This document shows positions 9,344-27,962 of a stretch of 30,365 nt of DNA, in pieces (position 1 is the first letter of the stretch; the number at the start of each line of letters is the position of its first letter). The translations under genes and the position numbers were made by a program. The notes under the pieces were generated by a model, which ran no database searches, was not told the origin of the DNA, and saw only the letters and a program-made list of their open reading frames with translations. The DNA is taken from positions 1 through 30,365 of IMG/VR virus record IMGVR_UViG_3300046777_003055; one strand, 5' to 3'. This DNA is from a virus.

Positions 9344-10537
9344 TTACTTAGCCTCCTTGGAGATGGAAAGGGGCTTCTTCCAAGCATTCTGCAGCATGTC
9401 CATATAGGACGAAGGTGCAGAAACGGGAGAAGCAATGGAAGCCACGGCTTTGCGCAGCTCGTCAGTGGTGGCAGAATCTTTGCGACCCTCAGAAAGGGTG
9501 TCAAACATTGCCTGTACGTAGTCGTCGCTCTTCTCAGAAAGATCAAGCTCGTCGCCACGTACTGCTTTGATGGAATCAACCATCACTTCACGGGCGGTTT
9601 TGCCAGCGAAAGCATAAGCGGCATCAAGAACAGGCTTAGCCTTCTCGATGAGAGCCACACGCTCTTCCACCATGGAATCAAGGTTGATCTCCTTGGCGGC
9701 AGCCAGTTCAGCAGTCAGTTCTTCAACTTGTTCTGCCAGGGCATCAGCACGACCCTCAGCGGAATCACACTTGCCCTTCATTTCCTTTTCCATGGCGTCC
9801 ATTTCTTCCTTCATTTTGGAAGCTTCAGACATCATGGCGTCGTACTTTTTCTTCATGTCCTCGTAGGACATTTTGGCGTCTTCGCGTTCTTTAGTGATCG
9901 CAAGAGCAACGCTCTCCGTCACTTCAAACTCGGCGCCGTCGAAAACGACTTTCGCGCTCATAGTTGTATTTTCCTCAATGGAAAGTAGGGAAGGATCAGC
10001 AGCATCTTGACGATCAAGATGAAGCTTCACTTGCGGGCCAGCGCGGCCCCGACGAACAACGGCGATGTGATTACCAAGGATTTCCTTTTGGATGCCATCG
10101 TAATGCTCACCGCTATCAGTAACGCCAGGCGTAGGATCATAATTAACCCTATAGCCAGCGCTTACCTCACGAGCGTCGCCGCGCATGATACGTTCAATGG
10201 TGTCTCGGTCCGTAATTGTCATTACGGCCTTGACGAAACCATTGTCGTATACCACTTCAGTGCCGCTAAATCCTACTTGGTAGTCTTTAGTATTTTCGGC
10301 ATCGAGAAGGACGGGAGGATGCTCCGAAGTGATTGCCTTGCCCGCAAAGGAAGCAAGACTATCGGGAGACGCCACTTCTGTTTCAGGCCTGTATTCACGA
10401 CGCACTGAACCGTCAGCATCTGTGTAGAGCTGAATGCCAGTGCGAGCAATAGAGGCCCAAGCCCGGAGGTAACCTTCGGGCGTCACCTCATATTTCTCAA
10501 TGGGAGAGAAATCGTAGCGACAAGATGCGGTGCTCAT
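9344..10537 (-). CDS. Capsid maturation protease fused to scaffold (DUF2213-like)
   Basis: 397 residues. Residues about 1-180 match the DUF2213 pattern: FSPIEKYEVTPEGYLRAWA, then ITSEHPPVLLDAE with a probable catalytic His, then REVSAGYRVNYDPT and a GNHIAVVRRGRAG loop. DUF2213 proteins are head maturation proteases. Residues about 215-290 form a long charged coiled coil (MSYEDMKKKYDAMMSEASKM and onward) typical of scaffold domains. An in-frame internal ATG at 9961 with GAGG upstream could give the scaffold part alone (205 residues), like lambda C/Nu3. This is the first gene of the leftward structural operon, 62 bp from the divergent XRE regulator. Confidence 0.83.
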   Translation of the reverse strand: MSTASCRYDFSPIEKYEVTPEGYLRAWASIARTGIQLYTDADGSVRREYRPETEVASPDSLASFAGKAITSEHPPVLLDAENTKDYQVGFSGTEVVYDNGFVKAVMTITDRDTIERIMRGDAREVSAGYRVNYDPTPGVTDSGEHYDGIQKEILGNHIAVVRRGRAGPQVKLHLDRQDAADPSLLSIEENTTMSAKVVFDGAEFEVTESVALAITKEREDAKMSYEDMKKKYDAMMSEASKMKEEMDAMEKEMKGKCDSAEGRADALAEQVEELTAELAAAKEINLDSMVEERVALIEKAKPVLDAAYAFAGKTAREVMVDSIKAVRGDELDLSEKSDDYVQAMFDTLSEGRKDSATTDELRKAVASIASPVSAPSSYMDMLQNAWKKPLSISKEAK

Positions 10538-10599: not shown

Positions 10600-10884
10600 A
10601 TGATGTTCCTCAAGAAGAGCAATGCCGATGTGCTTAAAATGCCCCATCAGCAAGCTCGTCTTCTCATTGCTTCTCGCATTAAAGAAGCCCGCCTTAACAG
10701 CGGGCTTTCACAGAAGAACGTAGCAGAAGCTTTGCATACAAGTCAGAGTTCTTATTCTCGAATGGAACGCGCTGAGCTCGCTCCTGACTGCGTGCAAATT
10801 CGCACTCTCAGTGGACTCTATGGAATTAGCGTGTTGTGGCTGATGGGCTACCCGTCATTCATTCTCAATGCAAAGCGTGATTAA
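10600..10884 (+). CDS. XRE/Cro-type helix-turn-helix regulator
   Basis: 94 residues. The segment RIKEARLNSGLSQKNVAEAL, followed by HTSQSSYSRMERAELAPD and then LSGLYGISVLWLMGY, is a full XRE HTH_3 domain (residues about 25-85): first helix, a turn with SQ, a recognition helix with SQSSYSRMER, and the closing YGISVLWLMG. The protein binds DNA as a dimer. It is the only plus-strand gene in the structural half and overlaps the 3' end of the convergent gene by 4 bp. A perfect inverted repeat lies just upstream, so autoregulation and control of the structural operon are likely. Confidence 0.88.
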   Translation: MMFLKKSNADVLKMPHQQARLLIASRIKEARLNSGLSQKNVAEALHTSQSSYSRMERAELAPDCVQIRTLSGLYGISVLWLMGYPSFILNAKRD

Positions 10885-11195
10885 TCCTCTTCATCGTCGT
10901 CATCGCCGCGGAGGTCGCGCAACTGATCCTCAATGCCTTCCATGATGTACGACTTCGCCATTGCCTCAATTTCAAAAGTGAGGAATTTGGTTGGATCAAA
11001 ATGAGGATCAGGCCTGTCGTAAACACTCATCACATAGATGTGAGTTTCGTCGAGACGGCCATTCTTGAAGCATTGCTTTTCAACAAGCTCCCAGCGTGAA
11101 GTGTTGCGATGTTCGTTGGCGGAAAGAATGGACAAAGCCTGCATTAGACCAATGCCTTCATCCTCCTGCTCGATAACGCGCACGTATTCGCTCAT
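10881..11195 (-). CDS. Hypothetical acidic protein
   Basis: 104 residues, MSEYVRVIEQEDEGIGLMQA to RGDDDDEED. The centre (SRWELVEKQCFKNGRLDETHIYVMSVYDRPDP) looks beta-rich, followed by a helix and a strongly acidic tail. It overlaps the upstream frame in an ATGA arrangement, so it is translationally coupled to the predicted frameshift protein. No family was recognised. The acidic tail could be DNA-mimicking or protein-binding, which is speculation. Confidence 0.6.
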   Translation of the reverse strand: MSEYVRVIEQEDEGIGLMQALSILSANEHRNTSRWELVEKQCFKNGRLDETHIYVMSVYDRPDPHFDPTKFLTFEIEAMAKSYIMEGIEDQLRDLRGDDDDEED

Positions 11196-11545
11196 TGATC
11201 TTTGTTTCGACTTTCTACCATCTTAATGATGCGATTTGCCCATGCCCTCCCGGCATCGCCTCCCCATAAAAGCCAAGCAATATATCCAGCATCATTCTCT
11301 CCTCCGCTTTTGTTCTTTTCGTGGCGAGAAAAGAATGCAGACATGCGCTTGATGGTGGCATAGCTAATTTTGCTGCCGCCAGCAAGATCGCCAGCTCTTG
11401 CCACGCCACTACCAATGCCTTGCTTCCCCGCTTCCTGCGTCGTCAAGCCGCCTTTGCCGTGTTTCTTGCGCAGCTCTAAGCCACGACGAGCAGCGCTCCT
11501 TACGGCAGCAGGAGGGGAGAAGCTTTCAGCGTCTCCCCTCAGTGC
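11192..11545 (-). CDS. -1 frame extension with phage AARRGLEL domain
   Basis: The frame is open from 11545 and reads ALRGDAESFSPPAAVRSAAR, then RGLELRKKHGKGG, and ends with AGYIAWLLWGGDAGRAWANRIIKMVE. This domain recurs in phage and cyanophage proteins, where SPPAAVRSAARRGLELR and a GDAGRAWA helix flank a region like ATIKRMSAFFSRHEKN. The only local start codon is a TTG at 11446, in the middle of the domain, and no ATG lies upstream in frame. Translation by -1 frameshift from the preceding DUF6496-like gene explains the whole domain (117 added residues). The biochemical role is unknown. Confidence 0.72.
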   Translation of the reverse strand, partial: ALRGDAESFSPPAAVRSAARRGLELRKKHGKGGLTTQEAGKQGIGSGVARAGDLAGGSKISYATIKRMSAFFSRHEKNKSGGENDAGYIAWLLWGGDAGRAWANRIIKMVESRNKDQ

Positions 11546-11551
11546 TTTTTT
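11512..11551 (-). promoter_or_regulatory. Candidate programmed -1 frameshift signal (DUF6496-like gene)
   Basis: On the minus strand GG[A AAA AAG] CAC TGA places the very efficient heptamer AAAAAAG (11551-11545) in register, one codon before the stop. Four nt later a perfect 9-bp stem GAGGGGAGA (11540-11532) pairs with TCTCCCCTC (11520-11512). Three further inner base pairs (GCT/AGC) follow across a single C-T mismatch. The -1 frame opens directly into a recognisable domain that has no start of its own. Confidence 0.75.
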
Positions 11552-11817
11552 CCGCAGCTCCCATCCATTTCTTCTTCTTCCTCTTCTTCTCCGGCAAGCT
11601 CCTTGAAGAAGCCCATATAGTATTCGTCGCTCATATCCTTCTTGGGCTTGCGAGACATGCCGGCTTCCGACAGGGCAATTGCCAGCGCTTGTTTCGGGCT
11701 CTTCACTGGTTCGCCACTGCTGCTCTTAAGCTTGCCGCCCTTAAATTCACGCATTACTTTGGCAATTTTTGCCTGCTTTTCTTTCTTGGTCATGGCCCAA
11801 ACGCTTTTCTTAAGCAT
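11539..11817 (-). CDS. DUF6496-like small basic protein
   Basis: 92 residues from the ATG at 11817, whose upstream base overlaps the end of the DUF4422-like gene. The core MTKKEKQAKIAKVMREFKGG, then KLKSSSGEPVKSPKQALAIALSEAG, matches the small DUF6496 motif found in many phages. It is followed by an acidic run of seven Glu. The last codons carry a slippery heptamer and a downstream hairpin, predicting a fusion of about 208 residues (91 zero-frame plus 117). The function is unknown. The lysine-rich core suggests nucleic acid contact. Confidence 0.75.
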   Translation of the reverse strand: MLKKSVWAMTKKEKQAKIAKVMREFKGGKLKSSSGEPVKSPKQALAIALSEAGMSRKPKKDMSDEYYMGFFKELAGEEEEEEEMDGSCGKKH

Positions 11818-11819
11818 AA

Positions 11820-12536
11820 TCAATGGATGAATCCTATAGGAGCGGTGGCGATATTCATGCCAGGGAAAAGTTTGTCACGATACAAAACCATGCCAGTAAT
11901 GAGGCGTTCGGCAATAAAAGCCAGCGCCCGCTTGTCATAGCCTCCAATGCGAAGAAACTGTTCTTCATGCTTGTGCCAAATGGGCGCCAATGCTACAAAT
12001 AGCGCGCTCATGAACTGCTTGTACTGAACATTGCTTCCTCTCGCCATGTTGCAGCCGATAAAGCTATTCTGCTTCCAAATGGCATCAATTTCTTCCCTTG
12101 AAAAAATCCAGCTTCCTGAATCCGCAATTTCCCTAGTGATTGCAGGAGCATCAAAAGCGGAGTGCCCACCATAGAACTGCTGCTCCAGCGTGCAGTTGAA
12201 CAATGCGGGCTCTGGAAAATACAGCGTATTTTCGTCATACCATTGATCATTTGGCTCCAGCCAATTGCGCCTGTATTGCGCATTGCCAATGTTCTTTTCG
12301 TTTGCATTAAGAATCATCCAAGAAATACAGGACAATTCTCCCCATCGGCTATTGCGAGTAGAAAGAGAGGCATTCTCATCGTCAAACACATAACCTTGCG
12401 CACGGAGCGTTTCACGCTCCTCGCTAGACAAAACATGCGCTCCTCCCATAATGGGAACGATGCGAGAGCGGGCTTCATACCTCACTTTCTCGCCAGGAAT
12501 GCACACGGCATAAATGGTGCAGTCAGACGGTTGCAT
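11820..12536 (-). CDS. DUF4422-like glycosyltransferase
   Basis: 238 residues. The layout fits DUF4422 enzymes, which usually have an ELTGLYWIWKN-like helix, an IGLVHYRRYF-like strand and an H-x-x-Y-Y region. Here these read GELSCISWMILNANEKNIGN, AQYRRNWLEPNDQW and LEQQFYGGHSAFDAP. The C-terminal part contains an ERLITGMVLY helix as in that family. DUF4422 proteins are predicted glycosyltransferases of capsule and LPS loci. The gene overlaps the upstream GT32-like gene by 14 bases, so the two are co-expressed. The acceptor sugar cannot be told. Confidence 0.68.
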   Translation of the reverse strand: MQPSDCTIYAVCIPGEKVRYEARSRIVPIMGGAHVLSSEERETLRAQGYVFDDENASLSTRNSRWGELSCISWMILNANEKNIGNAQYRRNWLEPNDQWYDENTLYFPEPALFNCTLEQQFYGGHSAFDAPAITREIADSGSWIFSREEIDAIWKQNSFIGCNMARGSNVQYKQFMSALFVALAPIWHKHEEQFLRIGGYDKRALAFIAERLITGMVLYRDKLFPGMNIATAPIGFIH

Positions 12537-13239
12537 AGACTTTCCTCGCAGACCACAGCTCGTTGTAATTGTTCACGCCTTTGGCGCCAAGACCAGTAAG
12601 GTCGCCGCCTCCCGCAGGCTTACTCCAAGCCATGATCGTGCCATCAGGAAGCACGAATGCTCGATTCTTCTGTCCATGCGTCGGCGTCAGTTCAAGATAA
12701 TCGCCGTAGATGAAATTGGCTTGGCTTCCATTCGCAGCAAGCGCCTTGCCTAAAAGCGTGGGACCAGTGGGGCACAATGGCGTGATGCCATAGTATTGCG
12801 TTTTGCAATTTTCCACAATCATGTCAATGGCAGCTTGCAGCGCTGCATTGTCTGGCTTGGAATAGAGCACAGTTGTGGCACAGGCCCAGCTTGTATAGCT
12901 AAAGCGTTGAATATCACGAAAAGCCAAGAATTCAATGCGATCACCAAGGTCCACTGCATTGAAGGCTCTCACGCCAATATCAAAATACCAGCCTCCGAGT
13001 TTATTCAATAAGCAGAATCGACCAAGATCTGCCTTGTAAGAGAATGGCGACAGACAATCATATGCCCACACCACTTCTTCTTCATAGTTCTCGGCAATAA
13101 AGGAACGAAGCGTATCGCTGTTGTAAATAACATGCTCAGCATCGGGAAAGCATGCGTCAATGGTTCCCGTGGCATGCTTGAGAAATGGACTCAGCTCTTC
13201 TGCTGGGTCAGTAGAAAGAAAGATTTGTGAAATTTGCAT
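12523..13239 (-). CDS. GT32/Och1-like glycosyltransferase
   Basis: 238 residues from ATG 13239, preferred over a TTG at 13248. The core SYKADLGRFCLLNKLGGWYF, then DIGV, matches the sugar-binding DXD region of Gly_transf_sug (GT32) enzymes, which reads D-x-x-R-x-x-x-L-x-x-x-GG-x-Y-x-D-x-D. Here the second Asp of the DXD is Gly (D87-I-G89), which may alter metal binding. A later segment YYGITPLCPTGPTLL matches the TGP loop of the family. It follows the GT-B gene by a few bases. It probably transfers a hexose in surface-glycan or virion-glycan synthesis. Confidence 0.75.
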   Translation of the reverse strand: MQISQIFLSTDPAEELSPFLKHATGTIDACFPDAEHVIYNSDTLRSFIAENYEEEVVWAYDCLSPFSYKADLGRFCLLNKLGGWYFDIGVRAFNAVDLGDRIEFLAFRDIQRFSYTSWACATTVLYSKPDNAALQAAIDMIVENCKTQYYGITPLCPTGPTLLGKALAANGSQANFIYGDYLELTPTHGQKNRAFVLPDGTIMAWSKPAGGGDLTGLGAKGVNNYNELWSARKVYATV

Positions 13240-13244
13240 GGCAA

Positions 13245-14468
13245 TCAAACAATCTTGGCGGGAGTACCAAAGCCCTTAAATTCAGGCTCTGCAGGCTTGG
13301 CAGCAAGCGTTTCATTCACTGCATCTTTAAGCTGCTGCTGAATGTAGGGCCACGTAAACGGCTCCTCATGGAGACGCTTATAGCACCATTGTCCATGCTG
13401 CTTCAGAATGTCGCGGTTCTCGTAATAGTAAGTGAGAATATTTGCAGCGCATTCAGGATCTGGAAGCAAGCGCTCCAAGCCGTAGTTCCTATCAGTTTCG
13501 CTGGCATTGCATTCAATGCGAGGCATCTCATCAAAGATTTCAGCCAAGCTTGTATGGTTTGGAACCACTTGTGCCACGCCAGTCGAGCCATGCTCCGAAT
13601 TGACCAGGCCCCATCCTTCGCCAATGCAAGTATTGATGCCAATATCAGCAGCGTTATACACTTGGTTCAACTGTTCAATAGGAAGACAGTTATCCACTGA
13701 ATAGTGCGGACTTGTCAAGATGAGCTTGCTTGTTGGGTCAAACCCTTCATCACGCGCCACACGCTTAAAGAGCGGCACTAATTCCCATCCCAAGTCTTTG
13801 CTGCCCATATTGAGCCATAGACGAGCGTCATCTTTGTCTTTGGCAAATTTGATGAACGCTTTAATTGTCAAATCAATGCGCTTACGCGGTTGATTTCTAT
13901 TGCCATTGAACACGACGAACACATCATCTGGCACACCAAGCTTTTTGCGACATTCTTCCTTGTCCATTGGGAAGAACTTTGTGAAATCAGTGCCATGCCC
14001 AATAATGCGCACGGGCTTTGTGTAGCCCATTAGCTCAAGCTCTTTCTTGGCAAACTCCGTGTAAGTGGCAAGTCCGTCCCATTCCATCATGGGCTTAGCC
14101 AAGTCTGGGAACAAGCCGTAAGAATCAATGGGAGTGTAGACAAACCATTTGAAGCCAAACTGCTCCTTCAACGGCTTCGCCTTTTCCCATAGTTGCAAGG
14201 CAATCCAAATGTCATTGGTCACCCATACAAGATCTGGCTTGAATGCTTGGATGACGCCTGCAATGCGATGGGAGCCAAACGGATCATTGCCATGCAGCAT
14301 GGCGGGGTAAACCGTATAGTTCTTCGCTTCTGGATGGGGGTCGCCGTGGAAGTTTACGGCTAATACAGCCACTTCATGCTCTTCTGCTAATGCAGGAAGC
14401 AAATATTGCGCCACTCGTCCAAAGCCTGTCTCTACAAAGGCATCGCCACAATACAGAATGCGGGCCAT
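13245..14468 (-). CDS. GT-B family glycosyltransferase (GT4-like)
   Basis: 407 residues. The N-terminal Rossmann domain starts MARILYCGDAFVETGFGRVA, whose glycine loop binds the acceptor or donor. The second domain begins near residue 184 with VFVVFNGNRNQPRKRIDLTI (donor phosphate site) and carries GEGWGLVNSEHGSTG at 283-297, the E-x7-E-type nucleotide-sugar signature of GT4 enzymes. Length and order match a full retaining GT-B enzyme. GGGGAG lies just before the ATG. The first gene of the leftward part of the sugar cassette, it diverges from the plus-strand pair at 14529. Confidence 0.88.
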   Translation of the reverse strand: MARILYCGDAFVETGFGRVAQYLLPALAEEHEVAVLAVNFHGDPHPEAKNYTVYPAMLHGNDPFGSHRIAGVIQAFKPDLVWVTNDIWIALQLWEKAKPLKEQFGFKWFVYTPIDSYGLFPDLAKPMMEWDGLATYTEFAKKELELMGYTKPVRIIGHGTDFTKFFPMDKEECRKKLGVPDDVFVVFNGNRNQPRKRIDLTIKAFIKFAKDKDDARLWLNMGSKDLGWELVPLFKRVARDEGFDPTSKLILTSPHYSVDNCLPIEQLNQVYNAADIGINTCIGEGWGLVNSEHGSTGVAQVVPNHTSLAEIFDEMPRIECNASETDRNYGLERLLPDPECAANILTYYYENRDILKQHGQWCYKRLHEEPFTWPYIQQQLKDAVNETLAAKPAEPEFKGFGTPAKIV

Positions 14469-14504
14469 AATCTCCCCTGAATCTTCGTCATCTTAAGGGG
14501 CTTT

Positions 14505-14525
14505 TATACTGATGGCAAAAGGAGG
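14505..14525 (+). promoter_or_regulatory. Putative -10 element and strong ribosome-binding site of the divergent sugar genes
   Basis: TATACT (14505-14510) matches a -10 element, without a convincing -35 upstream. AGGAGG (14520-14525) lies 3 nt before the ATG at 14529. The 60-bp gap separates the GT-B gene (minus) from the plus-strand pair, so both directions must start here. The -10 call is tentative and the ribosome-binding site is clear. Confidence 0.45.
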
Positions 14526-14528
14526 CAA

Positions 14529-15224
14529 ATGACATTACCACTTGGTTCAATACGCTTTTGCATTAGTACGTGCAAGAAATTTGCCCCGCATACAATTCCC
14601 GTTATCATTCCCAGTTTGTTTGCTGCTGGCATCAAGCAAGAGGAAATTTTAATCGTCAATGGCGGTCAAACTGTTCGCGCCAATACAAGCTACAAAGGCG
14701 TGCCGATGCTGCTGACGCAGCAGAATTCCTTTGAATACACGCCGCTCATTGAAATTGTGGAGCATTCAATGGAAAGCGAATATTGGTTTCTCCTTCATGA
14801 CACTTGCATTGCAGGTCCTCTCTTTAAGGTGCTGACCTATGAGTCTCCTGTGGAGGCCCCAGAGAAGGTGGCAATGAAACAAACGCCTTCGATGAGCATT
14901 GGTCTTTATCGCCACGACTATCTCATGGCTCACAAGGAGCGCTTGATGGCTATCAAGAACTTGGACAGCTCTCCTGAGGCGTTGCAGCGCTGGAAGCAGT
15001 GGGGCGTGCCAAACGAGGACTACATGCTCTGGAAGCTCCAGGACGTGCCTTGTCATATTTATCATCCAGACAAGCACGGCCCTGATGAATGGAACTATCA
15101 AGGGCACGCCGATCCATATGGCACTGGCATGCAGCGCCGCATCGAATACTTCCCGCAACTGCACCTCGCTAAAGCCAAAAGCAACTGGCAAGGCGTTCAA
15201 CCCCACCTTTGCATTGACATCTAA
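14529..15224 (+). CDS. Glycosyltransferase-like protein of unknown family
   Basis: 231 residues. The start contains KKFAPHTIPVIIPSLFAAGI followed by EEILIVNGG, a beta-alpha-beta opening like GT-A enzymes. EYWFLLHDTCIAGP (residues about 83-96) resembles the strand that ends in a metal-binding D-x-D, here H-D-T. The C-terminal part is rich in aromatic residues and His (CHIYHPDKHGPDEWNYQGHA). The gene overlaps the FAD-oxidoreductase gene by one base (TAATG), so they are co-translated. Its place in the sugar cassette supports a transferase role, but the family was not identified. Confidence 0.55.
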   Translation: MTLPLGSIRFCISTCKKFAPHTIPVIIPSLFAAGIKQEEILIVNGGQTVRANTSYKGVPMLLTQQNSFEYTPLIEIVEHSMESEYWFLLHDTCIAGPLFKVLTYESPVEAPEKVAMKQTPSMSIGLYRHDYLMAHKERLMAIKNLDSSPEALQRWKQWGVPNEDYMLWKLQDVPCHIYHPDKHGPDEWNYQGHADPYGTGMQRRIEYFPQLHLAKAKSNWQGVQPHLCIDI

Positions 15225-16177
15225 TGAAGCGTTTAGCAATTATTGGCGGAGGCTGGGTGGGATGTCATTTGGCAATGGCATTCCGCGATGAGATGGAAGT
15301 GACGCTGTATGAAAAGAATCATACGCTCATTTCAGAAACTTCTTTTATTAATCAAAACCGTTTGCACTATGGCTACCACTATGCCAGAAATGCTGCAACT
15401 CGCCGCCTGTGCGCCACTACTTTTGTGCGCTTCATGGAGGATTATGGCGATCTCGTTCATGACGTAGAGAATAATTACTACGCAGTGTCGGAAGATGAAA
15501 GTCTTCTTGACGCTGAAACTATTTCCATTATTTTCGGGAATGGTCCGCATGCTCAGTTAGATCCACGAGCTTTTAACCACACATCGCTTTTGCTGGCCAC
15601 TCCCGAAAAGCGCATTGATGCCATTGGGGCAAGCCTGTATTTTCAACGGCGCCTAGAACCACTGGTTAAAAAGGAAAAGATTCAACAATGCAATCTGCAA
15701 GCATTGAAGCAAGATTACGATTTTGTTTTCGACTGCACCAACAATGCTCTCCTAGATCCATTGCCCTCTCATTTCTTTGAAGCAGTGGCAATGTTTATTT
15801 ACCGCCCCAAGACTCCTCTTTCGTTCGGCGCCCTCACCTATATAGATGGAGAACTGTTTTCCATCTATCCATACAACGACAAATGCTTCTCGTTGAGTCA
15901 CGTAAGGCATGGCGTCATGAGCGATAACTCGCTCGACAATGCGGACGATGCAAGGCAATTAATTGAGCAACACGTGGAACGTTATTGGCCAGACTTTGCT
16001 GATAGCTTTGATTATCTATTCCCCACTCTTTCAATTAAAGCGAAGACAAAAGACTGCAGCGCTAATCGCACGCCATTGATGCGTCAAGACGAAAATCTAT
16101 TCTCTTTCTTCACGGGCAAGATTCAAGGCATCTATGCCATTGAAAGCATGGCTAGACAAATTATTGCTCAGCCATAA
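15224..16177 (+). CDS. FAD-dependent oxidoreductase (DAO / mutase-like)
   Basis: 317 residues. The N-terminus KRLAIIGGGWVGCHLAMAFR is a dinucleotide-binding beta-alpha-beta with GGGWVG at 8-13, and an acidic residue ends strand 2 (VTLYEKN). A basic/aromatic segment NRLHYGYHYARN follows, as in DAO-type flavoproteins. The C-terminal FFTGKIQGIYAIESMARQII resembles the second FAD contact. It may oxidise or isomerise a sugar nucleotide, since UDP-galactopyranose mutase has a similar fold, or an amine. The gene converges on the isomerase gene with a 10-bp tail overlap. Confidence 0.68.
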   Translation: MKRLAIIGGGWVGCHLAMAFRDEMEVTLYEKNHTLISETSFINQNRLHYGYHYARNAATRRLCATTFVRFMEDYGDLVHDVENNYYAVSEDESLLDAETISIIFGNGPHAQLDPRAFNHTSLLLATPEKRIDAIGASLYFQRRLEPLVKKEKIQQCNLQALKQDYDFVFDCTNNALLDPLPSHFFEAVAMFIYRPKTPLSFGALTYIDGELFSIYPYNDKCFSLSHVRHGVMSDNSLDNADDARQLIEQHVERYWPDFADSFDYLFPTLSIKAKTKDCSANRTPLMRQDENLFSFFTGKIQGIYAIESMARQIIAQP

Positions 16178-16914
16178 AGCTGTCTAAACAACGGATATTC
16201 ACGATGGTGCTGAGAAACATTTACCAGCTCGCGCGTGATTCCGCCTTGGTAGCTGCTTGCAACTAAGAGCCGTTTGATTTGCTTGTGTTCATACTGGTTC
16301 AAGATGGGACCATTGTCAGTGTCACTGATATGGACATGCGCAATGAAACGGAAGTAATGTTTGATAATCTTTGTCGGGCTATCGCCTTGCAGCCAAGCAT
16401 TATTTGTATCAAGCATTGTCTTCACATTGCGCAAGTTATAGAAGTCAATGTGATTGATAATCTCCTCGACCGAGTGGAAATACTTCCCTCCAAATGCTTT
16501 TGCAATAGGCTCAATGCAAAGAATGGCATCATTCGCCTCAAGGATTGAATCCATGCGCTTTAGAACTTCCATCAAGCTTGACGGGCTCCCCCTGCGCAAA
16601 GCAGGACTACCAAGGACGAAGCGCTTAATGCCCATCAAGGAGCCAAGCTTAACCACTCGCAGCAAATGCTCTTGCGTGGCAGCAGTGTCCTCAAAGCTTT
16701 GAACGGCGCTGTCATAGAACAGCGCCTGAGCTGAATAGGCCCAAAGTCCATAATGCTCCCTATAGCGCTTTGCAATGTCGCCAAAGTCTTCATTTCTCGC
16801 AAAGATACGAGACGGCACCAGCTCAATGAAATTAAAAGCGCCGGCATTGGCGCTTAAGATTTCATGCTCTTCTTCATCTTTCCAGCCAATCGCACTAATT
16901 CCAAGCATTAACAA
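16168..16914 (-). CDS. Xylose-isomerase-like TIM-barrel sugar isomerase/epimerase
   Basis: 248 residues with repeated beta-alpha units. Likely metal ligands lie in ILCIEPIA (Glu135), KTMLDTNNAW (Asp169) and HVHISDTDNG (His193 and His195), the spacing seen in AP-endonuclease-2/xylose-isomerase-like barrels. Such enzymes isomerise or epimerise sugars or sugar phosphates. The start overlaps the epimerase-like gene's end by 20 bases, so they are co-translated. It probably prepares an activated sugar for the nearby transferases; the substrate is unknown. Confidence 0.75.
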   Translation of the reverse strand: MLMLGISAIGWKDEEEHEILSANAGAFNFIELVPSRIFARNEDFGDIAKRYREHYGLWAYSAQALFYDSAVQSFEDTAATQEHLLRVVKLGSLMGIKRFVLGSPALRRGSPSSLMEVLKRMDSILEANDAILCIEPIAKAFGGKYFHSVEEIINHIDFYNLRNVKTMLDTNNAWLQGDSPTKIIKHYFRFIAHVHISDTDNGPILNQYEHKQIKRLLVASSYQGGITRELVNVSQHHREYPLFRQLYG

Positions 16915-17620
16915 ATGCCTCCATTTTTTTTAACGTGGTTTCTTTGCTAGAAAAATAAGGCCCACAATTGTATTCAATACGTACTCCATAATCGACGACT
17001 GTCTTCGCCCATGGAAACCATCGGTCAATAATCTCTAAAGTTTCAACAGGTTCAGAAAACCATTGATGCTCTCCGCCTTTTTGGCAAGCTTCAGTGTGAA
17101 GCCATAAATCCCTTAAATCGTACCATTGATAACAAGAATTAGCGTTAATCTTTTCAACGTTGTTGCTGTTAAGAAGATCAAACAAAATATTCTTTTTGAT
17201 GCGCTTGTGAAACAATGCAGGGAGGCGAATGATGGTAATTACAGTGTTGGGAAAGGTGGCCTTGACTAGCAGCTCAAAGATGTATCGCGTGGAACCATAA
17301 TTAATGGCATGAATCTCTGGGAAATTTTCCACATATTTATAAGTTTGACTATAGATGTCAATGGTGGAGTAAAGGATGATTTCCTTCGGACTCCATAGTT
17401 TAATCTTTGACATCACGTGATACATATTATCAAAATCTGCCATCGGAGCCTGATTTGCCTTCCACTTCTCCGCCGGCAAACAAGCTAAATAAAGCTTGTC
17501 AATATCATCTTTCAACAATGGAGCCAAGTGAATATTTTCGGAATTAAAGCGACAATCAAAATCGTGGTGCTCTCGCAAAACGCTTCCAATTAAGCCCGTG
17601 CTTCCAACCAAAACATCCAT
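16895..17620 (-). CDS. NAD(P)-dependent epimerase/dehydratase-like protein
   Basis: 241 residues from the ATG at 17620, which lies just after the head-morphogenesis stop. MDVLVGSTGLIGSVLREHHD carries the GxxGxxG cofactor loop (residues 6-12). IILYSTIDIYSQ corresponds to the catalytic Ser/Thr strand of extended short-chain dehydrogenases. NYGSTRYIFE (Y108-x-x-x-R112) occupies the place of the catalytic YxxxK, with Arg replacing Lys. The protein is shorter than typical epimerases (about 310). It may be an active variant or a regulatory relative. It is grouped with the isomerase and glycosyltransferases. Confidence 0.72.
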   Translation of the reverse strand: MDVLVGSTGLIGSVLREHHDFDCRFNSENIHLAPLLKDDIDKLYLACLPAEKWKANQAPMADFDNMYHVMSKIKLWSPKEIILYSTIDIYSQTYKYVENFPEIHAINYGSTRYIFELLVKATFPNTVITIIRLPALFHKRIKKNILFDLLNSNNVEKINANSCYQWYDLRDLWLHTEACQKGGEHQWFSEPVETLEIIDRWFPWAKTVVDYGVRIEYNCGPYFSSKETTLKKMEAFVNAWN

Positions 17621-17622
17621 GC

Positions 17623-18306
17623 TCACACTGCCACGACTGGCGCTTGTTGACGCATGTATTTTACGCTGCATTTGCAATTGGACATGCAAGCACAACGCTG
17701 ACCTGGCATGGGCAGACTTCCAATGGGAACAGCTCCTCGCCCTGCATAGCGCAAGCAGTCGTCACAATGCTTCGCCTGCGGATCGAGGATGCGTCGCATC
17801 AAGCTATACCCTTGCTTCTCCTGTCGAATTGTGGTGCCTTCCCAGTAAGAACCTCGCACAGCTTGAGCGTACATGCCGATGCGAGCAAGAGCCATGGGAG
17901 TAGAAATGCTCCCAGCCAGAAGATCGCGAGCAAAACTCTCCAGATAACGGTATTCCGCACGAAGGCGTTGACCGATGCGCCCCCAGTCTGAAGCTTGCAT
18001 CGTATCCCGTCCACCATTGCCAATGATCGCTGCTTGTACATGCGCAAGCTTAAGTGCTTCTCTTACGCTTTCTTGCCATTGAACCAACGTAATGTCGCCG
18101 CTACTAAGCATGTTTGTAAGACGACGTAGCAAAGTGCCAAGCTTGTTAATTCGACCATCAACCAAAGCTTCCACGGCAGACTGACTGAGGAACCTTCCAT
18201 TGCTTCCGCGATAACGGCCACTAACGGGATCGTAGCGCCATGAGGATTGGTCAAGACGCTGTTCAAGAGCGGCAGCGAACGTTGATAAATCATTCAGGCC
18301 TTGCAT
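17623..18306 (-). CDS. Head morphogenesis / minor capsid protein
   Basis: 227 residues. The N-terminal half is helical. The C-terminus carries YSLMRRILDPQAKHCDDCLR, then GSLPMPGQRCACMSNCKC. This His-Cys-x-x-Cys plus Cys-rich pair is typical of phage minor head proteins (gpF-like) and probably binds zinc. Members sit inside the portal and act early in head assembly. The start overlaps the portal gene's end by 17 bases, so translation is coupled. Confidence 0.75.
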   Translation of the reverse strand: MQGLNDLSTFAAALEQRLDQSSWRYDPVSGRYRGSNGRFLSQSAVEALVDGRINKLGTLLRRLTNMLSSGDITLVQWQESVREALKLAHVQAAIIGNGGRDTMQASDWGRIGQRLRAEYRYLESFARDLLAGSISTPMALARIGMYAQAVRGSYWEGTTIRQEKQGYSLMRRILDPQAKHCDDCLRYAGRGAVPIGSLPMPGQRCACMSNCKCSVKYMRQQAPVVAV

Positions 18307-20395
18307 CTTCAGCCTCCAGAATATCCTTGAAACGCTCAGGCGCTTCCTCCTTCCATTGGTTCAATGCAGCGTCAATATCCTCGGCGCTAATTAATGCGGC
18401 TTCGTCAAGGTCGGAAAGAATCAAGCCTTCGACTTTCATGGGCTCAAGAGCATCAACTTTGCTGCTCACATTCTTTGCTTTTCCTTTGCGTTCGGGATCG
18501 GGATCCGCCTTGCGCTTGCGAGCAACAATTGTTTGACGCTCTTCTTTGCTCATGGCTTGCGCCTTGGCTTGCGGCAGACATTTAGGCTTGCCTTCTTTTT
18601 CCTCGCGAGCGCCACACGGACCAAGGATTTCGCCATTGGCGCCAATCCTCACCCACTTTTCCTTGAACCATTTATCAAGATCGTCAGCATGAAGCTCTTG
18701 TTCGTCGCTCTTGAATGCTCCGCTCAGTGAACCGTGCTTCTTCTTGTACATTTGCTTGTACTGTTGCACCACGTAGCCACTGGCGTAAGCAGAAGGCCAC
18801 ACTTTGAATTTGGACTTAGCAGCGCTTACTGCCCGAGAATGCAGCTCTTTATCCGTGAATGTCACGTCGCCGCGAACTTTCTCTAGATCACGAGGTAGAA
18901 ACAGACCAGCAGCATCTTCCCTGCTGTCCTCCACTTCACGGCTTCCGTCCATGGGAAGAGTGCCGTTCTCCTCGTTCATTGGATCACGACCGCCAGGAGG
19001 CACTGCCATTTTCCCGTCACCCCCTTTCTGAGTGGAACCACCCCCAGCTTGAGTGGAAGACTGGGGAAGTTCCCGCACTACGGACGGATCCAAGGTGAGT
19101 TCCATGCTCCACTCAGAGCCGCCATAGCGGGCATCTGCCACTTCCTTAGGACTCAGCACGCCAAGCTGGATGTAACGACCGTCTACGGCCGCCACACGCG
19201 CCCGTACGTCGGCCATTTCGCGCTCATTAAGCTCGAACAATGGATTGAAAGAAATGCGCCATGACTCAGGCAGCTCTCCTTTCGTGGGGCCTTCCTTGCT
19301 AAGCATGATCATTTCCATCAATTTCTTGATGGGCCGTTTGAAATGAACGCTTTGATAATCAGCAAGCGTTTTGGCGAAATCACGCTCTTCACTACGGCCA
19401 GTAGAGCCAAGGCCACTCGGACTTTCGCCAAACAACACTGTATGAGGAATCTTGCTGGCGCCGATAATGTCTACGCGCAGCTTTTCTAGGATTTCTCCAA
19501 TGCCTCCAAAGTTGCGGCTAATAAATTCAAGCTCTTCTTTTTCCGCATCAATCGCGTAGCCGCGATAAATGCTCTTGCTCATATCATTCACTTGCAAGCG
19601 ATCACGAATGGAGCTTTCTTTACCAGCCGCAAGCATGGCTGCTAAGCCTCTTACTTTATGAACGAAAATATCAAATTCAGTGAGGAGCGTTGCTGCTGAA
19701 TTCAAGCCTGTCCAATAATGCCTGAAGCTGTCATAAACAGTTTGCAAACTGCTCATTCCCCATCCATAGTTACGCTGCCTCACTCGATAAGGAAGCCAGT
19801 CGCCATCAAAGCGGAGAATGCGGTCTTTATGAATGTAGGTGAGCTGGGGCTGGTTAATTAAATCTCCAGAGATGATCTGATAATAAGTGGCTTTTGAATA
19901 GTCGTATAAGTTTTCTTCATTAATAACGGGCGCAATTTGCCATCGGTCCAAGCACTCAATGTCTTCGATGCGACGGATATTCCGTTTATCGACAGGCATG
20001 TAAGCGGGACGCCCATCGTCAATAAAAAGAAGTAGACAAGCACCCCCATAAAGGCGGGCGTTCTTGGCTGCGAGGTTGAGGTGTTCGAGGATGTAGAGGT
20101 CTTCAATTACTTGCTCAATTCCTTGCACTTCTTCGGCTTTAACGCCATCGCCACCAAACAATACTTTGAAGCCTTTTCGAGTGGCTTGGTCAGCATAAAT
20201 ATCAACAATGCGACGAGGAAGCCATTCACCATAAAGATTTTCTAGTTCTTCTTGCGCCAGAAATACTGTGGCTGTAGTTTTAGTATATTGCGCCTTATCG
20301 CGGCCAGTGCCCATGCCAATGAGCACATTCTGAAGACCATCAGCCCTCACTCCGCCACTGCCAACGTGACCAAGATCAATCGCTTCGTTTTCCAT
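18290..20395 (-). CDS. Portal protein (DUF1073-like) with C-terminal DUF5872-like domain
   Basis: 701 residues. LYGEWLPRRIVDIYADQATR, then AAKNARLYGGACLLLFIDDG and TVLFGESPSGLGSTGRSEER are signatures of DUF1073-type portals, the dodecameric ring through which DNA enters the capsid. After a Gly/Ser-rich linker (about 450-510), residues 521-645 form a second unit: KFKVWPSAYASGYVVQQYKQ, DLDKWFKEKWVRI, GPCGAREEKEGKPKCLPQAK and a basic tail. This matches the DUF5872 pattern known as a small independent domain in phages. A helical acidic end follows. The fusion makes this portal longer than the usual 450-550 residues. Confidence 0.85.
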   Translation of the reverse strand: MENEAIDLGHVGSGGVRADGLQNVLIGMGTGRDKAQYTKTTATVFLAQEELENLYGEWLPRRIVDIYADQATRKGFKVLFGGDGVKAEEVQGIEQVIEDLYILEHLNLAAKNARLYGGACLLLFIDDGRPAYMPVDKRNIRRIEDIECLDRWQIAPVINEENLYDYSKATYYQIISGDLINQPQLTYIHKDRILRFDGDWLPYRVRQRNYGWGMSSLQTVYDSFRHYWTGLNSAATLLTEFDIFVHKVRGLAAMLAAGKESSIRDRLQVNDMSKSIYRGYAIDAEKEELEFISRNFGGIGEILEKLRVDIIGASKIPHTVLFGESPSGLGSTGRSEERDFAKTLADYQSVHFKRPIKKLMEMIMLSKEGPTKGELPESWRISFNPLFELNEREMADVRARVAAVDGRYIQLGVLSPKEVADARYGGSEWSMELTLDPSVVRELPQSSTQAGGGSTQKGGDGKMAVPPGGRDPMNEENGTLPMDGSREVEDSREDAAGLFLPRDLEKVRGDVTFTDKELHSRAVSAAKSKFKVWPSAYASGYVVQQYKQMYKKKHGSLSGAFKSDEQELHADDLDKWFKEKWVRIGANGEILGPCGAREEKEGKPKCLPQAKAQAMSKEERQTIVARKRKADPDPERKGKAKNVSSKVDALEPMKVEGLILSDLDEAALISAEDIDAALNQWKEEAPERFKDILEAEDARPE

Positions 20396-26037: not shown

Positions 26038-26400
26038 TTATGAATACTCGTCAATGTGATCGTTAATAGCGTCAAACATTGAACAGAGTTTTAATTGCCT
26101 GCGCCGACTCATATAAGGAAACATTAGATGTCCAAGCGTTGAACATTTGATTTTGTCTCCCAGTGTCCAAGTCCAGCAAGGTTTGCGATTATCTGGAACC
26201 TTTGTTGATACCAGTCCACCGCCGAATAATGCGTGAACTTTCTCAAGGGTATCCAAATCGGTCATCTTGATGGACATTCGGACCATGAGGTAATAAGGTT
26301 TGCGTTTTGTTCTGGAGGCATTGTGGCGATAGCTAACGCTGATCCACCCTTCGCCTTCAAATAATCCCGCAAACCAAGCAAGTTCTTCGTTGGTTGGCAA
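26038..26400 (-). CDS. LAGLIDADG homing endonuclease
   Basis: 120 residues from a TTG start at 26400, which has GGGAG 7 nt upstream; the nearby ATG is out of frame. WFAGLFEGEGWISV (9-22) is a single LAGLIDADG helix with the acidic catalytic residue. Later, YYLMVRMSIKMTDLDTLEKV and CSTLGHLMFPYMSRRRQLKL match the conserved second half. A one-motif protein would work as a homodimer. It sits free-standing between the large and small reductase genes, a common insertion place for phage homing endonucleases. Confidence 0.85.
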   Translation of the reverse strand: MPTNEELAWFAGLFEGEGWISVSYRHNASRTKRKPYYLMVRMSIKMTDLDTLEKVHALFGGGLVSTKVPDNRKPCWTWTLGDKIKCSTLGHLMFPYMSRRRQLKLCSMFDAINDHIDEYS

Positions 26401-26430: not shown

Positions 26431-27897
26431 CTACTCTGAACAAGCAGCGCAGAATCCAGCCTCTACGGAACAAGACGCAGAATCCTGATCAGCCTCTTCA
26501 TCGAGGCCAAACATGCTCTTAAAGTCATCATCCAACGCAGCATATGCGTCGTCCTTGCGCTGAGTATCAGGCAGGACTTGCAAGCTGTAATAGAGGCTCG
26601 TCTGAGGAGATTCTAGCCAAGAGCGCAAGAATGCTTCGTTATAAATGACCACATCTGACCATGAATTAAATGAATAACCATGGAACAATCCTGTGCGTTG
26701 ATACAGCTTCACTAGACCATTTGCAGCTTTATAGAAAGCTTCCCAGCCCACTTCGGCAGCAGTTTCTACATCGCCATAGTCAAAGCTTTCCACGCCAAAT
26801 GTGCCCGAGTCACGATCAACAGTGCGAGCAATAGGAGGAGCAATTTCAGGAGCAGTTGTGAAGCCCCTGGTGTCCAGATAGCGATAGGAGCACGATGCAG
26901 TGGGAGCAATGCAAAAGGCACGTTCCATTTCATGCTCACGAGCAATCTCCGCAGCCTTCTGAATGCCCTGGTCGATTTGCCACACCGCTTCGCCAGAAAT
27001 GGTGCCTTTCCAGAAATCATCCCACGCGCGAGGATCCTCAGCAAGATAAGCTTCCAAGGCATTGCCAAAATCTTCGTAGCTAATCCCTTGAATGGCAAGG
27101 AAATTAGCCAGGCCCAGCACGCCCAAGCCAATTTGCCTATCAATGGAAGAAGGAAGATATTCCCCAGTGTCACCAACGCCAGTTTTGGAATGCAGCTCGC
27201 AAAGCTGCATCATGCCTTCAACAAAAGCTCCTTGAATGTTACCCAGCGTACATGCACCCAAATTAACGTGCTGAAGCAGACAAGTGCCACGATGCGGAAG
27301 ATAAACTTCCAAGCAGACATTGGCGCGGATGCGTTCTCCACGATTATTGTGGCGGATTTTGTTGAGCCAGAGATCGCCAGAAGAGATGGAACGAAGACAG
27401 GCATTAATCAACTCGGGAGACGATGCGGAAAGAAAATTATCATCAACATTCAAGCAGCGCTTCACCCAAGGAAGTTCGCTGCGCGAAGCATTAACAAATT
27501 CAATGGCATCAGGATGCGTATAGTCAAGATGCAGCACTACAGCTCCATTTTTATACAAACCACCCCTACGCAAAATCTCATTAAGCGTGGAATAAATCTT
27601 TCCAAAACTTACTGGTCCGCTTGCCACCAAGCCTTTGCCATTTTCAGCGCCCCTTTCGCGCAAAGAAGACAAATGAACAGCGACCCCCGCACCATTGCGC
27701 AAGCCATGGCTAACAAACCGCCAAGACGCTTCGATGCCATCTTCGCCTTCCATTGAATCTTCTACGTTGAACACCGTGCAACTCACAGGCAGGCGTCCAT
27801 CAGGGCTATCCAGCCAATCCTGCACCCTGCCAGTGCGGGCAATCGGCTCACATTTTGCCTTTTCCTTCAGCTTCATAAGACGACAAAAGGGGACCAT
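26431..27897 (-). CDS. nrdA: Ribonucleotide reductase large subunit
   Basis: 488 residues from ATG 27897 (a TTG at 27918 and an ATG at 27876 are alternatives). All five active-site residues appear: Cys40 (VSCTVFN), then Asn193, Cys195 and Glu197 (RANVCLEVY), and Cys216 (NLGACTLG). The C-terminus has a CxxC pair (Cys483/Cys486 in FCAACSE) for re-reduction. FCIAPTASCSYRY-type and TTAPEI segments complete the barrel. There is no N-terminal ATP cone, so allosteric activity control is probably absent. It makes deoxynucleotides for phage DNA. A 16-bp palindrome is centred on the start codon. Confidence 0.9.
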   Translation of the reverse strand: MVPFCRLMKLKEKAKCEPIARTGRVQDWLDSPDGRLPVSCTVFNVEDSMEGEDGIEASWRFVSHGLRNGAGVAVHLSSLRERGAENGKGLVASGPVSFGKIYSTLNEILRRGGLYKNGAVVLHLDYTHPDAIEFVNASRSELPWVKRCLNVDDNFLSASSPELINACLRSISSGDLWLNKIRHNNRGERIRANVCLEVYLPHRGTCLLQHVNLGACTLGNIQGAFVEGMMQLCELHSKTGVGDTGEYLPSSIDRQIGLGVLGLANFLAIQGISYEDFGNALEAYLAEDPRAWDDFWKGTISGEAVWQIDQGIQKAAEIAREHEMERAFCIAPTASCSYRYLDTRGFTTAPEIAPPIARTVDRDSGTFGVESFDYGDVETAAEVGWEAFYKAANGLVKLYQRTGLFHGYSFNSWSDVVIYNEAFLRSWLESPQTSLYYSLQVLPDTQRKDDAYAALDDDFKSMFGLDEEADQDSASCSVEAGFCAACSE

Positions 27898-27904
27898 GGT
27901 CCCC
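27889..27904 (-). promoter_or_regulatory. 16-bp palindrome over the nrdA start codon
   Basis: GGGGACCATGGTCCCC is a perfect palindrome whose centre contains the ATG at 27897. In minus-strand RNA it folds as GGGGAC-CATG-GTCCCC followed by TTTT, resembling a terminator and hiding the start codon. It could limit nrdA translation or end the upstream transcript, in which case the ATG at 27876 may be the true start. Confidence 0.55.
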
Positions 27905-27962
27905 CGAGAATCAACCAAGGCAGGCTAGCGCAAGAAGACCATGGGAAAGAGAAAGGAAAGCT

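Follow-up and report, generated by a model that had tools for sequence, protein, structure and literature searches.

A predicted programmed -1 ribosomal frameshift joining a DUF6496 protein to an AARRGLEL domain in the head-assembly module of an S-CBS4-like cyanophage

In a cyanophage resembling S-CBS4, a DUF6496 protein (ORF A) of the head-assembly module is very likely joined to an AARRGLEL domain (ORF B) by programmed -1 ribosomal frameshifting; from the comparative sequence analysis we put the probability of this reading at about 0.9. The window, i.e., the whole stretch of DNA analyzed here, is a virus record of 30,365 bases. A frameshift fusing these two partners had been proposed in a preliminary description of the window, and the proposal is supported by a slippery heptamer found in 116 of 116 relatives with the same frame relation, by covariation in the stem downstream of it and by the lack of any ATG for ORF B in these relatives. 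Ribosomes would translate the DUF6496 protein up to the sequence A_AAA_AAG, where a strong stem follows 4-5 nt downstream. A fraction of the ribosomes would then slip back in tandem by one base, enter the -1 frame and add the AARRGLEL domain, while the unslipped ribosomes would terminate one codon past the heptamer. Two proteins in a fixed proportion would result, the short A of about 84 residues and the long A-B of about 200. That slippage takes place in the host, how often it does so and what A-B does are points which we infer.

Layout of the locus and conservation of the slip site

ORF A is encoded on the minus strand at 11539-11793 (84 residues in the zero frame) and matches the Pfam family PF20106 with an E value of 2.2e-8 and 34.7 bits, which is above the gathering score of 24. 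Its 3′ end reads ...AGC TGC GGA AAA AAG CAC TGA, so that the heptamer A_AAA_AAG (11545-11551) is in phase with ORF A and the zero-frame stop TGA (11539-11541) lies one codon past it. ORF B (11192-11545, minus strand, 117 residues) would form the C-terminal part of the trans-frame product. After the slip the -1 frame starts with ALRGDAESFSPPAAVRSAARRGLELR and ends at a stop at 11194-11192; residues 10-111, at 11213-11518, make up the AARRGLEL domain (phrog_2859, profile E 6e-17). No ATG, GTG or TTG is found in this frame of the window ahead of the domain, and ORF B is without a start codon of its own. The preliminary description was thus correct in placing an in-register AAAAAAG at 11551-11545 one codon ahead of the stop and in letting the -1 frame open straight into the domain.

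The predicted trans-frame protein A-B would span 11192-11793 on the minus strand. Homologues of the same two-domain makeup are encoded without any shift in L199, L230, L125, L241 and other relatives. That there should be a short and a fused product had been foreseen, and this pair stands; the sizes of 92 and 208 residues given for it followed from a start at 11817 and should probably be replaced by 84 and about 200 residues. The counterpart of the ATG at 11817 runs into a stop within a few codons in several near relatives, and the in-frame relatives begin with MTKKEK or MADKK. The start at 11817 is therefore doubtful, and 11793 is the likely start of ORF A.

Scans of viral contigs, GTDB genomes and phage records yielded 143 distinct loci with an AARRGLEL domain. 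ORF B is in the -1 frame of ORF A in 116 of them and in a single frame with it in 18; the remaining loci have a +1 relation (two, L263 and L288), a stop inside ORF A (one, L296) or no recognizable ORF A (six). All 116 loci in the -1 arrangement carry an X_XXY_YYZ heptamer at the identical position relative to ORF B, namely AAAAAAG (100 loci), GGGAAAG (14) or CCCAAAG (2), and in 114 of the 116 the zero-frame stop follows 0 or 1 codon past the heptamer. The C-termini of the ORF A proteins are diverse (e.g., SCGKKR, RKKG, NKKKS, MGKD and SPKA), which argues that it is the slip site and not the tail of the protein that selection keeps. Lysine in ORF A is encoded across the relatives by 831 AAG and 686 AAA codons, and from the codon use of ORF A about 25% of the Lys-Lys pairs would be expected to read AAA-AAG. 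The other open reading frames of the minus strand of the window (19,254 nt) hold just three in-phase heptamers of these classes, one of which is the tail-chaperone site described below.

Some observations concern single loci or groups of relatives. In L263 and L288 a difference of one base at the slip site puts ORF B in the +1 relation, and these may be assembly errors. In the C-terminal half of many ORF A proteins of the S-CBS4 group (e.g., L236, L259 and L301), immediately ahead of the slip site, there is a long run of Glu or a conserved GEKRCRGYL motif; the GEKRCRGYL motif is absent from ORF A of the window.

The stem-loop and its fate in in-frame relatives

The predicted stimulatory stem-loop (11512-11540, minus strand) begins 4 nt past the heptamer. 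In its perfect 9-bp stem GAGGGGAGA (11540-11532) pairs with TCTCCCCTC (11520-11512), and three further stacked pairs are formed between 11530-11528 and 11524-11522, just as the preliminary description had it. The structure has a folding energy of -24.9 kcal/mol (z = -5.2), and none of 200 dinucleotide shuffles equals it. A covariance model of the stem gave a single match in the window, on the minus strand, with an E value of 1e-13. No Rfam family matched at its gathering score, the best hit being a snoRNA (E 0.19).

Comparison of the relatives, which the preliminary description had named as a check, showed that the stem covaries. In 84 distinct sequences 89.5% of the stem cells are paired as against 84.9% in shuffled alignments (0 of 500 shuffles were as high), and pairing drops to about 60% when the stem is shifted by one base. 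Changes on both sides are seen in five stem pairs. At pair 18-34, in which the silent wobble base of a Gly codon faces the first base of a Ser or Ala codon, we find CG in 36, AU in 32, UG in 8 and GU in 3 sequences, while 5 are unpaired; in one subclade the two bases are mismatched, as C-U or U-U. Double changes at adjacent stem pairs occur in L137 and L259, and RNAalifold recovered the same 7-bp stem core unaided. The inner three pairs are poorly conserved among the relatives, and in a few -1 loci (L248, L258) the stem is weak.

Both domains lie in one frame in 18 of the 143 relatives, and nearly all of these are without the heptamer and most of the stem. Homologues of this kind had been named in advance as an observation that would speak against a frameshift; they do exist, in these 18 loci only, and do not refute it, since the signals are kept where they are needed and lost in nearly all loci that do not need them. 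Stem pairing falls to 63.6% of cells in the in-frame fusions, and their median stem energy is -9.6 kcal/mol versus -18.9 kcal/mol in the shifted loci (p = 1e-6), where the loci entering this and the other shifted-versus-fused counts share ancestry and are not independent, though fused loci occur in several clades. The Arg codon that lies in the stem ends in G in 84 of 84 shifted loci compared with 8 of 14 in-frame loci (Fisher p = 3e-6); of the Arg codons elsewhere in ORF B, 21% do. The apparent synonymous constraint in this codon goes with the shifted state. An upstream Shine-Dalgarno-like motif is present in 52 of 101 shifted and 4 of 14 fused loci, and a clearly conserved stimulator of this type was not found among them.

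A tree was built from 290 nt of ORF B outside the junction and rooted on L232. The basal lineages (L232 and the S-CBS4 group) are all shifted with AAAAAAG, bar L263 with its single-base oddity. The fused state requires seven changes on the tree, at least three of which are forced by well-supported branches, and the heptamer type requires eleven. From this sequence comparison the frameshift looks like the ancestral state in the sampled clade, and in-frame fusion appears to have replaced it several times, via mutation or recombination. As judged from the 18 in-frame homologues, a separate protein A is dispensable in some lineages. The fusion in L221 (2989-3034; also in L070) has one extra A in the slip run when compared with the shifted loci L110 and L274 and has kept the stem; it is either a natural frame-lock of recent origin or an assembly error.

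Alternative explanations

ORF B might be translated on its own and without any frameshift, if ribosomes re-initiated where the stop overlaps (CTGA) or started at a GTG or TTG. Indeed, a GTG or TTG is present in the B frame of 61 of the 116 loci in the -1 arrangement, and the B frame of the window has a CTG codon that shares bases with the TGA ending ORF A. We nevertheless regard independent translation as very unlikely: an ATG for ORF B occurs in none of the 116 loci, ATG, GTG and TTG are all absent in 55 of them, and the overlapping CTG is not conserved, being replaced by CTA, TTA, GTA, GAC, GAT or TCG in relatives. Moreover, it would leave unaccounted for both the invariant heptamer and the covarying stem, which the in-frame fusions have mostly lost. 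A stop in the B frame lies within 15 nt upstream in 21 of the 116 loci and directly ahead of the slip codons in 10. Among the more distant relatives of ORF B 158 of 160 have an in-frame ATG; a covariance-model search of 40 distant B loci gave no convincing copy of the stem, and among named phages bearing ORF B or DUF6496 S-CBS4 was the only one with a convincing copy. The hairpin would have nothing to do with decoding if it were a transcription terminator of the plus strand, where the stem is followed by AGTGCTTTTTT, with a run of six T a few bases on, and where a repressor-like gene is encoded at 10600-10884. This is hardly to be believed, as the hairpin is absent from the output of a terminator scan, the GGGAAAG and CCCAAAG loci keep the stem without having a plus-strand T-run, and the signal weakens precisely where A and B share one frame.

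Two further explanations turn on the A-run itself. Slippage of the RNA polymerase rather than of the ribosome could give transcripts of mixed frame, and 100 of the 116 loci do have runs of 6-8 A. In most loci, however, the run is only six long, and 16 of the 116 have GGGAAAG or CCCAAAG, i.e., no long homopolymer yet a proper heptamer for tandem slippage. Since in addition the phase of the heptamer is fixed and the spacing to the stem is typical of ribosomal frameshifting, we consider transcriptional slippage highly improbable. The least probable of all the alternatives is that A and B are one gene broken at the A-run, either as a pseudogene or through a sequencing or assembly indel. Such runs are error prone, the frame is continuous in 18 relatives, and L221 resembles the -1 relatives plus one extra A; but the same frame relation is seen in 116 distinct contigs from many metagenomes as well as in the genome of the S-CBS4 isolate, differing heptamers occupy one site, and ORF B is strongly conserved as a protein among the relatives.

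Head-module context and comparison with known systems

The preliminary description had put the frameshift outside the tail module. This is correct and can be refined, as A/B is inside the head module, between the upstream, portal end of this module and the DUF2213 protease gene. The minus-strand order is portal, a gene of unknown function at the MuF position (phrog_24776), sugar-metabolism-like genes, A/B, a gene of 104 residues, the DUF2213 protease, a cement protein and the major capsid protein. The portal protein (18290-20395, minus strand; PF06381, E 7e-63) carries a C-terminal DUF5872 domain (residues 514-631; PF19197, E 1e-12), which is a further small domain of unknown function within this module. 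The DUF2213 head maturation protease, encoded at 9344-10537 on the minus strand by the second gene downstream of A/B, matches PF09979 with E 4e-43 and phrog_530 with E 5e-101. The cultured Synechococcus phage S-CBS4 has the same gene order and A/B layout; its annotation has A and B as two hypothetical genes, gp18 and gp19, and gp19 starts about 40 nt inside ORF B.

The sugar-metabolism-like block (11820-17695), which includes glycosyltransferases, is an insertion between the portal-proximal head genes and A/B, and S-CBS4 has different glycosyltransferase genes at the matching site. The plus-strand gene at 10600-10884 is a repressor-like helix-turn-helix gene inside the head module and is found at the same place in S-CBS4 (gp21). 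Elsewhere in the window, on the minus strand, a homing-endonuclease-like open reading frame sits beside an apparent part of a ribonucleotide reductase gene (26038-26400 and 26431-27918).

In other phages ORF B is usually part of proteins of head assembly, being fused to prohead protease, capsid or portal proteins. It is N-terminal to the XkdF protease in Limnohabitans phage DC31 and to an S78 protease plus HK97-type capsid in S-CBS1 and Roseobacter phage CRP-406, it occurs in DUF2213-like proteins of HGTV-1 and Vibrio phage 1.122.B (with weak DUF2213 matches), and it lies between portal and MuF in HRTV-28. In two Vibrio phages DUF6496 occurs alone, directly ahead of the genes for portal, head morphogenesis and DUF2213. 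A-B itself does not appear to be a prohead protease (S78, XkdF, DUF2213), because P0001, P0002 and the in-frame fusion L048 gave no Pfam protease match. An AlphaFold2 model (pLDDT 84) of L199, an in-frame homologue, consists mostly of helices. Searched against the PDB it had no match at E <= 0.001, with weak Z scores of up to 4.0 (2.4 for lambda-repressor-like helices), and as these matches are weak we make no claim of DNA binding; against BFVD it matched B-containing prohead protease, XkdF and portal proteins. By sequence no relative of ORF B with a solved structure was found (best E 0.89). Considering the company of ORF B elsewhere and the nearby DUF2213 protease gene, we give about even odds to A-B being a low-copy head-assembly component in which B is an accessory domain working with the prohead protease or scaffold. 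Judging from the domain fusion and the gene order, the frameshift probably determines how much of a head-assembly domain is made.

In the open-licence papers searched, among them PRFect, the 2016 recoding review (PMC5009743) and the GeneTack survey, we found no description of a DUF6496/AARRGLEL frameshift and nothing on a frameshift between portal and head maturation protease, the S-CBS4 locus included; DUF6496 is mentioned in none of them. Established phage frameshifts are mostly those of tail chaperones and of capsid or tail extensions, and the A/B shift is conserved within a large clade of aquatic phages in a different head gene, which even the annotation of the cultured S-CBS4 wrongly splits into two hypothetical genes. 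It gives access to two unknown domains of phages, DUF6496 and AARRGLEL, and a phage-host pair in culture is available for testing it. Because some relatives brought both frames together and afterwards lost heptamer and stem, selection on each element of the signal can be read directly.

The tail chaperones of the lambda G/GT type resemble A/B in that a short upstream gene of a virion-assembly operon has an in-phase X_XXY_YYZ close to its end and in that a short and a C-terminally extended product arise. They differ in that here DUF6496 is joined to a head-assembly domain, within the head module and ahead of the gene for the head maturation protease; A/B is not placed between major tail protein and tape measure, as a tail chaperone pair would be, and no relation of A/B to tail proteins was found. 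The phage of the window has its own candidate G/GT pair at 5421-4499, with the heptamer AAAAAAC at 4915-4909. On the minus strand at 4915-4882 GCA AAA AAC TAA ends the gene 5421-4906, a stem CGGCTTG/CAAGCCG follows, and the -1 frame is open to 4499.

Capsid or tail proteins extended by -1 or +1 frameshifts, often with an Ig-like domain, are known from Lactobacillus phage A2, T3 and Listeria phages A118, A500 and PSA, and in-frame versions have been noted as well (PMC5009743). These share with A/B a shift in a head gene by which a minority of the product gains a further domain at its C-terminus, but A is not a capsid protein and B is not Ig-like, being otherwise linked to prohead proteases. The XkdF protease of DC31 and the S78 protease-capsid polyproteins of S-CBS1 and CRP-406 have the same phrog_2859 AARRGLEL domain at their N-terminus; there it opens its own gene and is fused to the protease, whereas here it is separate and would be reached only by the frameshift.

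In the dnaX element of E. coli A_AAA_AAG has a stable stem about 5 nt behind it, and the shifted product is the shorter one. A/B has the same A_AAA_AAG with a stable downstream stem; it differs from dnaX in that its shifted product is the longer one and that an upstream Shine-Dalgarno-like stimulator is not clearly conserved. The mechanism is that of a classical bacterial -1 frameshift. Tentatively, and with somewhat less than even confidence, we suggest that A/B may represent a class of frameshift not described before in the head-maturation cassette of phages, in which the ribosome, rather than transcription or a gene of its own, would fix the dose at which a domain associated with the prohead protease, tethered to a DUF6496 carrier, goes into the growing head, similar to Gag-Pol in retroviruses, and from which several lineages would have escaped by fusion.
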